Source: an uncultured Luminiphilus sp.
GTDB lineage: Bacteria; Pseudomonadota; Gammaproteobacteria; Pseudomonadales; Halieaceae
Direction: 5' to 3'
Assembly (NCBI GenBank): GCA_938084055.1
Contig: CALKDK010000017.1
Span: 1-50,012 of the forward strand
Length of the DNA stretch: 50,012 bases
The notes beneath the pieces were generated by a model. That model had not been told where the DNA came from. It worked only from the letters and a program-made list of their open reading frames with translations, and did no database searches. Below are positions 6,881 to 9,804 of this stretch, one piece after another (the first letter of the stretch is position 1; every line of letters begins with the position of its first letter). The position numbers were made by a program, and so were the translations under genes.

Positions 6881-6918
6881 GGGGATGTAAATGTCCTTTT
6901 GGCACGGAGACAACGCTC

Positions 6919-6962
6919 AATGTTAACACAATAAACTTTGCAATGTAAACCGAATTAACATT
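6919..6962 (-). promoter_or_regulatory. Promoter and candidate TetR operator of the efflux operon
   Basis: On the minus strand TTTACA (6944-6949) and TTAACA (6921-6926) are 17 bases apart, a reasonable sigma70 promoter. The same stretch holds AATGTTAAC at 6919-6927, AATGTAAAC at 6942-6950 and the inverted copy TTAACATT at 6955-6962. Related half-sites thus straddle both promoter boxes. Binding by the TetR protein of this operon is the obvious hypothesis. The sequence pattern is seen; the binding is inferred. Confidence 0.5.
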
Positions 6963-6993
6963 TAGGAGTGGCGCATTTAAACCACCACCCAAG

Positions 6994-7022
6994 TTGCGGT
7001 TGGGCGCAGTTTTCGCGACACT
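6994..7022 (+). promoter_or_regulatory. Likely promoter of the 4.5S RNA gene
   Basis: TTGCGG (6994-6999) and GACACT (7017-7022) are separated by 17 bases. A GC-rich stretch follows, as is usual for stable-RNA promoters. A start near 7028 would give a short 5' leader of about 23 bases ahead of the mature RNA, to be removed by processing. The -10 box is weak. Confidence 0.4.
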
Positions 7023-7050
7023 ACGCGGCCGCGCAGTGCGCGGGAGCTAT

Positions 7051-7160
7051 GGTGACTCGGGTGGTCCCCTCGCAGCGATAGGTAACGAACCCCGCCAGGC
7101 CCGGAAGGGAGCAACGGTAGTTATTGATTCGGGTGCCGGGGTGTGGCTGCTCGAGTCACC
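7051..7160 (+). ncRNA. ffs: Signal recognition particle 4.5S RNA
   Basis: This bacterial SRP RNA of about 110 bases folds as one long hairpin whose ends pair (GGTGACTCG at the 5' end with CGAGTCACC at the 3' end). The apical region carries the conserved Ffh-binding core CCAGGCCCGGAAGGGAGCA and the matching GGTGCCGGGGTG strand. A T-rich run (CCATTTTTC, to 7170) follows the terminal stem and probably acts as terminator. With Ffh it targets nascent membrane proteins to the translocon. It lies directly ahead of dnaX. Confidence 0.95.
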
Positions 7161-7194
7161 TCCATTTTTCGAGGCGGCGTTCCGATATGTTGCA

Positions 7195-8847
7195 ATGAGC
7201 TACCAGGTCCTTGCGAGAAAATGGCGACCCCGGAATTTTCAGGAGATGGTGGGGCAACAGCACGTTCTCCGGGCGCTAATTAATGCCCTGGACCACGACC
7301 GCCTGCACCATGCGTATCTTTTTACGGGAACACGCGGCGTGGGTAAAACCACCGTGGCACGAATTCTTGCGAAGTGCCTGAACTGCGAGCTCGGTGTGCG
7401 CTCAAAGCCCTGCGGAGAATGCGGCTCCTGTCGGGAGATTGCTGAGGGGCGCTCGGTTGATCTTATCGAGGTGGATGCGGCTTCTCGAACCAAAGTAGAA
7501 GACACGCGAGACTTACTCGACAACGTGCAGTACGCCCCGACCCGGGCGCGCTTCAAGATTTATCTGATCGACGAAGTGCACATGCTGTCCAACCACAGTT
7601 TCAATGCGCTGTTGAAAACCCTTGAGGAACCGCCGCCCCACGCCAAATTCCTGCTCGCGACCACCGACCCGCAAAAATTACCCGCAACCATCCTGTCACG
7701 CTGCTTGCAGTTCAATTTAAAGAACATGATTCCCGAGCAGGTGGTTGAACACCTCAAGGTGGTCCTTGCAGAAGAGGAAATAGGCTATGAGCTGCCTGCC
7801 CTGACGTTGTTGGGACGCGCTGCGGCGGGCTCTATGCGTGACGCGTTGAGCTTGACCGATCAAGCGATCGCATACGGTTCAGGGCAACTTGCCGAAGCCG
7901 ATGTCAGGGATATGCTGGGAACTGTCGATAGAACCCGGGTGCTTGGGTTACTCGCCGCTGTTTGCGCAGGTGATGCCGCCCAGGCTATTGCGGGTGTTGA
8001 TGAAATCGCCCAGCATGCGCCTGACTACGGTGCTACGCTGGAAGAAATGATTGCCTTGCTGCACCAGTTGACGTTGCTCCAGATGGTTCCCACAGAATCG
8101 GCGGGGCAAACAGCAGAAGAACAGCGTTTGTCTGAATTGGCAAGGCAAATGTCTCTCGATGAGTCGCAGCTATACTACCAATTCGCCATCAATGGCAGGC
8201 GGGATCTACCCGTTGCACCTGATCCGCGTATTGCGCTGGAAATGACGCTGCTGCGCATGATTGCATTCAAACCGATTGAGGACACAACGGGGGCTGATGT
8301 GCCACCGAATACCCAGGCAGAGGGACCCCCGTCGACAAAAAAGCCTGAGCCACCGGAGCCCCCGGTGGTCAAGCAGCCACTGGAACAGATGGTTGAATCA
8401 CGGGCGGGCACTGTGAAGGAAGGTGAATCTGCTGCCAATGAGGTAGTGCCGCCGGATCCAGACCTGCCAACACCTGCAGCATGGCCGGAATTCTTCGAGA
8501 CGCTTGGGCTGGTGGGCATCACCCAGAGTGTGGCTCTGCACTGTGAACTGACGGTGGTTTCCGGGCGCCGTTTGGAGTTTGTGCTGGACAGCAACAATGC
8601 CACGCTTTTTCAGGAGCGGCAGGTGGGAACATTGAGCATGGCATTCAGCCAGGTGCTCGGCGAACCGGTGGATGTTGTGATAAACGTGGGTGATGTCGGG
8701 GAGTCTACCCCCCAGCATCGTCGCAGGATGCTGGCGGCTGAGCGACAGCGGCAGGCCGAATTGGCACTGAGTGAAGATCCGCAGCTGACGGCATTGCTTG
8801 CGGAATTTGATGGTCAGGTGGTTGAGGGGAGTATTCGACCTCGGTAA
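7195..8847 (+). CDS. dnaX: DNA polymerase III subunits tau and gamma
   Basis: This 550-residue clamp-loader ATPase loads the beta clamp; the full-length tau form also binds polymerase and DnaB helicase. The true start is ATG 7195 (MSYQVLARKWRP, the family hallmark); the open frame running further upstream only crosses the SRP RNA. Walker A is GTRGVGKTT at 45-53, the zinc site uses Cys64, 73, 76 and 79, and the Walker B region reads YLIDEVHMLS. Domains I-III reach about residue 370, then a Pro-rich linker leads to the tau-specific part. An A AAA AAG heptamer with a downstream hairpin lies at codons 381-383 and would yield a gamma form of 384 residues. ybaB and recR follow, as in many gammaproteobacteria. 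Confidence 0.97.
   Translation: MSYQVLARKWRPRNFQEMVGQQHVLRALINALDHDRLHHAYLFTGTRGVGKTTVARILAKCLNCELGVRSKPCGECGSCREIAEGRSVDLIEVDAASRTKVEDTRDLLDNVQYAPTRARFKIYLIDEVHMLSNHSFNALLKTLEEPPPHAKFLLATTDPQKLPATILSRCLQFNLKNMIPEQVVEHLKVVLAEEEIGYELPALTLLGRAAAGSMRDALSLTDQAIAYGSGQLAEADVRDMLGTVDRTRVLGLLAAVCAGDAAQAIAGVDEIAQHAPDYGATLEEMIALLHQLTLLQMVPTESAGQTAEEQRLSELARQMSLDESQLYYQFAINGRRDLPVAPDPRIALEMTLLRMIAFKPIEDTTGADVPPNTQAEGPPSTKKPEPPEPPVVKQPLEQMVESRAGTVKEGESAANEVVPPDPDLPTPAAWPEFFETLGLVGITQSVALHCELTVVSGRRLEFVLDSNNATLFQERQVGTLSMAFSQVLGEPVDVVINVGDVGESTPQHRRRMLAAERQRQAELALSEDPQLTALLAEFDGQVVEGSIRPR
8321..8368 (+). promoter_or_regulatory. Programmed -1 frameshift signal in dnaX
   Basis: Three parts known from E. 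coli dnaX are present in order. An SD-like AGGGA lies at 8321-8325. The slippery heptamer A AAA AAG lies at 8337-8343, in frame as ACA AAA AAG. After a six-base spacer comes a hairpin, CCACCGG (8350-8356) pairing with CCGGTGG (8362-8368) around a five-base loop. After a -1 slip the next codons are GCC TGA, so translation stops at once. The product would be gamma, with Ala384 as last residue. Confidence 0.88.
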
Positions 8848-8863
8848 ATGAGTGGGAGGCATA

Positions 8864-9181
8864 ATGAAACTTGGTAACCTGATGAAACAGGCCCAGCAGA
8901 TGCAGGAGGGGCTCGCTAAGGCACAGGAAGCCGTAAAGGCGATCGAGGTGACGGGTGAGTCTGGAGCCGGGCTGGTAAAAGTCGCCATGACCGGGTCCAT
9001 GGAGGTGAGTTCGGTGCACGTTGATCCACAGGTGTTGGAGGAATCCGTAGAGATGCTGGAAGACCTGCTGGCGGCAGCCGTCAACGACGCCGTGCGGCGA
9101 GCGCAGGCCGCGGCACAGGAGCACATGGCCTCGGTAACCGGCGGCCTAAACCTACCAGAAGGCTTTAAAATGCCTTTTTAA
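8864..9181 (+). CDS. ybaB: YbaB/EbfC family nucleoid-associated protein
   Basis: This 105-residue small DNA-binding protein forms dimers and coats the nucleoid without strong sequence preference. It begins [21 protein letters not shown] with a long N-terminal helix, then a central beta region ([20 protein letters not shown]) and a C-terminal helix ending in the conserved Gly-rich [16 protein letters not shown] 8864 is chosen over the in-frame GTG at 8852 because GGGAGG at 8854-8859 is correctly spaced for it. It sits between dnaX and recR, the usual order. Confidence 0.96.
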
Positions 9182-9192
9182 ATTATTGAATT

Positions 9193-9804
9193 ATGAAGCT
9201 TTCTAAATCAATTGAAGAGTTAATAGAGGCGCTGCGCTGTTTGCCGGGAGTCGGTCCAAAATCTGCGCAGCGCATGACACTTCATCTCTTGGAGCGGGAT
9301 CGCGGCGGTGCTGCCAACCTTGCTGAGGCGTTGCAATCCGCATTGGATAGGGTGGGGCGCTGCGCGGCCTGTCGCAATTTTACGGAGCTTGAGTTCTGTG
9401 AACTGTGCGCAGACCCCCGCCGGGACCAAGGGCTTTTATGCGTTGTCGAAGCACCTGCAGACGTTATGGCCCTGGAGCAGAGCGCCAGTTTTCAGGGCGT
9501 CTACTACGTGTTGATGGGCCATCTTTCCCCTATCGACGGGGTTGGCCCCGAGGAAATTGGCCTGGACAAGCTCGAAGCTCGCTTTCGGACAGAAGATATT
9601 CATGAAGTCATTCTCGCCACCAATCCTACTGTTGAGGGCGAGGCCACAGCCTTCTACGTTGCCCAGCGCGCTGAATCGGCCGGGATAAAGGTCACACGCA
9701 TAGCCCATGGTGTACCGCTGGGCGGTGAACTGGAGTACCTTGATGCGTCCACGCTGGCTCACGCTTTGACGGGACGAACTGCGGTGTCTGGGGGCGAGTC
9801 GTGA
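9193..9804 (+). CDS. recR: Recombination protein RecR
   Basis: This 203-residue protein acts with RecO and RecF to load RecA at gapped DNA. The order is as expected: a helix-hairpin-helix ([17 protein letters not shown]), a four-cysteine zinc finger ([17 protein letters not shown]), then a Toprim domain ([17 protein letters not shown], followed by [19 protein letters not shown]) and the C-terminal Walker-like region. Its length is normal for the family. The stop overlaps the GTG start of rnd (GTGA), which suggests cotranscription and coupling from dnaX onwards. Confidence 0.97.

Follow-up and report, generated by a model that had tools for sequence, protein, structure and literature searches.

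Does the dnaX gene of an uncultured Luminiphilus species of the family Halieaceae carry a programmed -1 ribosomal frameshift signal, so that tau and the shorter gamma clamp-loader subunit come from one gene, as in E. coli? The question was raised by a 50,012-nucleotide stretch of its DNA (contig CALKDK010000017.1), referred to below as the window, in which the initial annotation had described a complete frameshift cassette of the three-part E. coli type. We conclude that it very probably does and put the probability of a frameshift signal making gamma from dnaX at about 94%, the frameshift being predicted from E. coli. The elements themselves, their phase and the selective constraint acting on them are matters of observation.

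The gene is a typical dnaX. On translation of the window, the tau frame was open through 550 codons from the ATG at 7195, with a calculated mass of 60.3 kDa. Pfam placed a delta'-type AAA domain at residues 20 to 178, its lid at 182 to 230, gamma/tau domain III at 233 to 358, and tau domain V at 429 to 547 of the protein, which was 57.5% identical to E. coli DnaX across residues 1 to 394. The gene order dnaX-ybaB-recR (Table 1) is identical to that of E. coli. The source genome comprises 2.92 Mb in 79 contigs and is 83% complete. A gene for the bacterial small SRP RNA (RF00169, 68.7 bits) was detected at 7059 to 7155 on the plus strand, ending 39 bases before the dnaX ATG; the automatic list of open reading frames stretches dnaX across this RNA gene back to a TTG at 6994, an unlikely start.

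Table 1. Coordinates of dnaX, its neighbors and the elements of the frameshift cassette in the window
Feature	Position	Strand	Basis
dnaX, tau (zero frame, 550 aa)	7195..8847	+	Translation; Pfam; NCBIfam PRK07994 above cut-off
Predicted gamma (zero frame to codon 383, -1 GCC, TGA)	7195..8348	+	Translation; frameshift predicted
Internal SD-like AGGGA, 11 nt upstream of heptamer	8321..8325	+	Sequence; position kept in genus
Slippery heptamer A_AAA_AAG, in phase	8337..8343	+	Sequence; genus conservation
-1-frame stop TGA, one codon past shift	8346..8348	+	Sequence; genus conservation
Putative stimulatory stem-loop CCACCGG-AGCCC-CCGGTGG, 6 nt past heptamer	8350..8368	+	Folding; genus conservation
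ybaB/ebfC, directly after dnaX	8864..9181	+	TIGR00103
recR	9193..9804	+	TIGR00615

Every element named in the initial annotation was confirmed at the position given for it. The heptamer is exactly in frame, with ACA AAA AAG forming codons 381 to 383 (8335 to 8343), and AGGGA is present 11 bases ahead of it. Six bases past the heptamer lies the perfect hairpin of seven pairs, with arms at 8350 to 8356 and 8362 to 8368 and the loop AGCCC, and the -1 frame, as claimed, ends after a single codon (GCC, TGA; 8343 to 8348). The translations reproduced the lengths of 384 residues for the predicted gamma and 550 for tau; gamma would end in ...STKKA, with a calculated mass of 42.2 kDa, and be shorter than its E. 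coli counterpart (384 versus 431 residues), the difference sitting in the linker. The locus has the hallmarks of an E. coli-type site, namely, A_AAA_AAG after domain III, a stem 5 to 8 nt downstream, and a -1 stop right after the shift. The claim that the design as a whole is that of E. coli dnaX held for the heptamer, the stem, and the -1 stop, all of which are under constraint in the genus, and less firmly for the SD part, which codon shuffles cannot separate from coding sequence.

We determined the conservation of these elements in close relatives, the check proposed together with the original claim, and found no loss of the heptamer or the stem among the 47 of 57 genus genomes that had a readable dnaX linker. 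The in-phase heptamer followed by a -1 stop after one codon was found in all 47, with TAG in place of TGA in two of the rows (L008 and L023). In 42 genomes the stem matched CCACCGG-N5-CCGGTGG without any change at the same six-base distance; the first arm read CCGCCGG, an A-U to G-U change, in four and was masked by N in one. A gapless alignment of 46 genus rows, excluding L009 (N in the stem) and L047, had invariant columns that were nearly all accounted for by the heptamer, the T of the stop, the stem, and one G of the SD-like block, and the loop varied. Stem pairs 1 to 7 form in each of the 46 readable rows; an eighth pair (C-G, U-G, or U-A), absent in the window, forms in 43 of them. As for the SD-like block, the G at -14 was present in all 47 rows, with purines at -13 to -11 in most, and a purine-rich SD-like 5-mer, scored by a motif list of our own choosing, was found in all 47, ending 10 nt before the heptamer in 37. 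This motif is weaker evidence than the other elements, and its support is positional.

A single genome (G055, L046) was considered as the sole exception within the genus and rejected as such, the exception being apparent only and arising from a dnaX frame broken in the assembly; the cassette is intact there, and its phase is right against the local frame (L195). A change of the dnaX frame upstream of the slip site in the assembly was also seen in L132 (G068) and L133 (G081).

To determine constraint at the nucleotide level, we aligned 42 of the 48 genus rows by codon, those left out being L046 (broken frame), L047 and L018 (both from G040), L009 and L026 (N), and one further row removed by the filter for N. 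Codons 382 and 383 were AAA and AAG in all 42 sequences. The third base of codon 381, which is the first base of the heptamer, was always A over six amino acids (Ala, Val, Pro, Arg, Gly, and Thr), and that of codon 384, the T of the -1 stop, was always T over four (Pro, Ser, Thr, and Leu). The same codon was used in 100% of the sequence pairs at positions 382, 383, 387, 390, and 391 and in 86% at position 386, against an average of 40% for 221 conserved columns, and the next best columns reached 58% for Pro, 54% for Val, and 70% for Lys. When eight-codon segments were compared, the 15 most constrained of 544 all overlapped the cassette. The strongest synonymous constraint in dnaX therefore falls on the slippery bases, the -1 stop, and the stem, as one would expect if they form a frameshift signal, and we can name no other function that needs phase, stop, and stem together. 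Covariation in the stem was almost nil, consisting of the one-sided A-U to G-U change in four rows and one double change at the eighth pair, and the observed score was reached by 125 of 500 shuffles; the test was unsuccessful because the stem is too invariant to covary.

The slippage at this site, its efficiency, and the presence and replisome role of gamma are modeled on E. coli. By the hairpin stalling described there (PMC6787027, PMC7282821, PMC5009743), the hairpin at the mRNA entry would hold the ribosome with tRNA-Lys(UUU) on AAA AAG in the P and A sites, and contact of the upstream SD-like motif with 16S rRNA would assist the hold-up. Measured from the first base of the P-site codon, the stem begins at 12 nt, near the pausing distance of 11 to 12 nt given for E. 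coli, assuming that both are counted alike. Both tRNAs would then move into the -1 frame and pair with AAA AAA, GCC would be read, and TGA would terminate translation after the Ala, the non-shifting ribosomes giving tau. An E. coli-type dnaX signal would be expected to cause about 50 to 80% frameshifting. The gamma product would retain domains I to III entire and lack most of the linker and the polymerase-binding tau domain V. Its 384 residues should be enough for the clamp-loader core, since the E. coli gamma constructs in solved clamp loaders (1xxi and 1jr3) have 368 and 373 residues and residue 369 of the window protein aligns with E. coli residue 370.

Efficient slipping in E. coli has been tied to the presence of a single tRNA-Lys, whose pairing with AAG is weak (PMC5009743), and E. 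coli is described as having tRNA-Lys(UUU) and no CUU one (PMC6787027). An exact-pattern search detected tRNA-Lys(UUU) in the window's own genome (G000) and in 106 of 140 family genomes; tRNA-Lys(CUU) was found in none of the 140 by this same search, which misses the UUU species in 34 of them. One tRNA-Lys (UUU) for both AAA and AAG is what the search indicates, the window's own genome being 83% complete. The result fits the frameshift mechanism and leaves the losses of the heptamer described below unexplained.

Among the other explanations, the one that fares best is that the signal is real and rarely slips, so that ribosome pausing and not gamma has been selected. It could draw on the stem, which has 7 perfect pairs and a 5-nt loop against the 10 bp given for E. 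coli (PMC7282821). Pausing, however, needs neither the phase of the heptamer nor a -1 stop, and both have been kept, the stop also in the form of TAG for TGA, so we consider this explanation improbable.

Still less probable is transcriptional slippage of the Thermus type, in which RNA polymerase stutters on a run of A and produces mixed-frame mRNAs. Like the window gene, Thermus thermophilus dnaX gives a pair of products from one gene with the help of an A-run (PMC5009743, PMC1088944); slippage would thus use a run in the same linker and lead to the same end product, and runs of A10 to A11 were present in 11 of 78 dnaX linkers sampled from the rest of the order. The run in the window, however, has only six A, against the nine at which Thermus dnaX slips transcriptionally (PMC1088944), and it is also at nine that a sizable fraction of genomes is reported to show selection against slippage (PMC1088944). 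Within the linker, the longest run of A was six in 46 of the 47 genus rows measured and eight in the remaining one. Moreover, slippage requires neither a stem nor a fixed G after the run, yet both are constrained in the window's genus, as is the -1 stop.

A chance origin, with a Lys-Lys pair and a Pro-rich linker in a GC-rich gene yielding a heptamer and a palindrome, ranks equally low. The heptamer by itself is not rare in the window, with nine copies of AAAAAAG found against 4.45 expected (at least nine in 1 of 100 shuffles). Given the peptide, the eight codon choices of the cassette have a probability of about 7e-5 under the genus-wide codon usage of dnaX, a figure calculated post hoc. The segment of 30 nt that follows the heptamer (8344 to 8373) folded at -15.8 kcal/mol (z, -4.06), and none of 200 dinucleotide shuffles was as good. 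Synonymous-codon shuffles in the window genome alone were not significant and to that extent favor chance: 19 of 200 were as good for the 48 nt downstream and 82 of 200 for the SD-like motif. These single-genome tests have low power, since E. coli dnaX itself likewise fails them, with 16 of 200 as good for the hairpin and 35 of 200 for the SD motif. Taking 10 or fewer of 200 shuffles as good as the threshold, the downstream fold beat the codon shuffles in 24 of 46 genus rows and in 15 of 63 other family rows, and the SD test was significant in none of the 46 or the 63. (The dnaX of G040 lies on two contigs and supplies two of these 46 rows, G040 being one genome in the genome counts.) What decides for the cassette is the comparison among relatives and not the single-genome tests: 42 to 47 of 47 relatives retain the heptamer, stop, and stem although neighboring amino acids change, and extreme synonymous constraint is limited to the cassette site. 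For these three elements chance is already refuted; the SD-like motif alone could be partly coding.

The specificity of the combination was determined by a search for the exact pattern (heptamer, 6 nt, stem) in a collection of 84,980 species. It occurred in 63 stretches, 39 of them in dnaX, all 39 on the coding strand and in the same phase; the other 24, from Collinsella, Clostridia, Billgrantia, Lentisphaeria, and others, had no dnaX match. A minus-strand terminator (the stem followed by CTTTTTT) in place of a frameshift signal, for which one can cite a scan match on that strand at 8361 to 8347 with a 5-pair stem and the 24 matches outside dnaX, some of them resembling bidirectional terminators with longer stems, is scarcely credible, as the full 7-bp stem sits 6 nt from the T-run, the dnaX copies keep to one phase of one strand and preserve the -1 stop, and terminator-like sites in the region barely exceed those in shuffles (4 against a mean of 2.8, standard deviation 1.8).

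Among the copies outside dnaX, those of Collinsella (L164, L178, L180, L185, L194, and others) and Billgrantia have a longer stem, and the Collinsella ones are probably a shared bidirectional terminator. Five copies from several phyla (L163, L191, L198, L211, and L222) have in common a second hairpin behind the AAAAAAG and stem and are perhaps the ends of a mobile element.

Taken as a frameshift signal, the cassette resembles that of E. coli dnaX. Both have A_AAA_AAG in phase, an SD-like AGGGA(G) 10 to 11 nt upstream, TGA one codon past the shift, and a GC-rich stem 5 to 6 nt downstream with an ACCGG/CCGGU core, the last of which could be shared by chance. The slip site differs in position, being at codons 382 and 383 of 550, about 13 residues past domain III, in the window and at codons 429 and 430 of 643, about 59 residues past it, in E. 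coli. The window element is outside the Rfam family of DnaX frameshifting elements (RF00382), which had no match at an E value of up to 1 in positions 6900 to 9300 of the window and none at up to 0.001 in 19 genomes (its own and relatives, 150 first-look candidates scored per genome), the E. coli control being detected. Chlorobium-type dnaX also combines an A-run with recoding (PMC3711429, PMC5009743), but there tau requires the frameshift, whereas in the window the zero frame encodes tau and the shift would give gamma. The proposed mechanism is an ordinary one, a known E. coli trick in another bacterial group. The groups for which a 2013 survey names a dnaX recoding signal include the enterics, Vibrio, and Neisseria (PMC3711429), and our search of a literature that lacks most subscription journals yielded no earlier report of dnaX frameshifting in Halieaceae or Luminiphilus. 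With the present case, a textbook recoding signal reaches a marine family, and the evidence of selection is unusually clean.

In the rest of the family, the in-phase heptamer was found in 64 of 75 readable genomes (8 of 83 were dropped because the linker was not readable), mostly without a stem of the window type, and the -1 frame closes after one or two codons in 60 of these 64. Beyond the genus, the stem differs or is lacking, and the SD-like motif is often the stronger GGAGG. The linker lacked the heptamer in 11 genomes belonging to two genera, g9 (L070, L071, L081, L082, L095, L103, L109, and L120, one of them with a cut linker) and g3 (L104, L119, and L123). In a tree built from 103 DnaX sequences, g9 lies well inside the family and g3 on a long branch. 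The absence in g9 is read from this tree as a loss, since the genus is nested within the family; the placement of g3 is unsure. Gain of a tRNA-Lys(CUU) was considered as the cause of the missing heptamer in g9 and g3 and rejected, as the CUU pattern was found in none of the 140 genomes and the UUU pattern in six of the eight g9 and one of the three g3 genomes. Any gamma formed in g9 might come by a different path, for instance the proteolysis described for Caulobacter (PMC5009743).

Farther away, samples were taken and not censuses, comprising 78 of the 230 matching genomes found elsewhere in the order and, for the remainder of the class, 66 of about 137 matching genomes, mostly the better-matching ones. 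The heptamer was present in 49 of the 78 sampled dnaX genes of the order (five of the 78 sequences are cut at the 3' end), in nine cases inside a run of A10. These nine are also among the 11 genes with A10 or A11 runs, as A10G contains the heptamer. All 11 have stops within 9 codons in the -1 frame and within 4 codons in the +1 frame and look like candidates for Thermus-type transcriptional slippage; they come from families f3, f15, f34, f35, and f39 (L149, L155, L242, L266, L268, L269, L279, L270, L144, L277, and L278). Among the sampled class genomes outside the order the heptamer was rare, occurring in 5 of 66, once in a run of A9, and runs of at least nine A were found in 6 of the 66. This class survey started from 68 loci, two of which had no anchor; two of the 66 with a cut linker were counted as lacking the heptamer, and L308, which repeats an order genome, was excluded.

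A separate origin of the window-type signal and that of E. coli is possible, since the site lies about 45 residues nearer to domain III than in E. coli. A broader reading, suggested by the different linker position and the patchy occurrence of the heptamer between the two groups, is that the family cassette arose apart from the enterobacterial one and that dnaX in the order moved several times among ribosomal frameshifting (A6G), probable transcriptional slippage (A10 to A11), and no visible signal; we hold it tentatively, at somewhat short of even odds. Were it true, dnaX in this order would be a natural experiment on the need for gamma. The heptamer-less genera g9 and g3, together with the families with long A-runs, make the purpose of gamma testable by comparison. 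The genus nearest to that of the window on the DnaX tree (g2, L127 to L131; support, 93/77) has a longer linker in which the heptamer and -1 stop lie at codons 458 to 514, some 75 to 130 codons further down, where the site may have moved or re-evolved.
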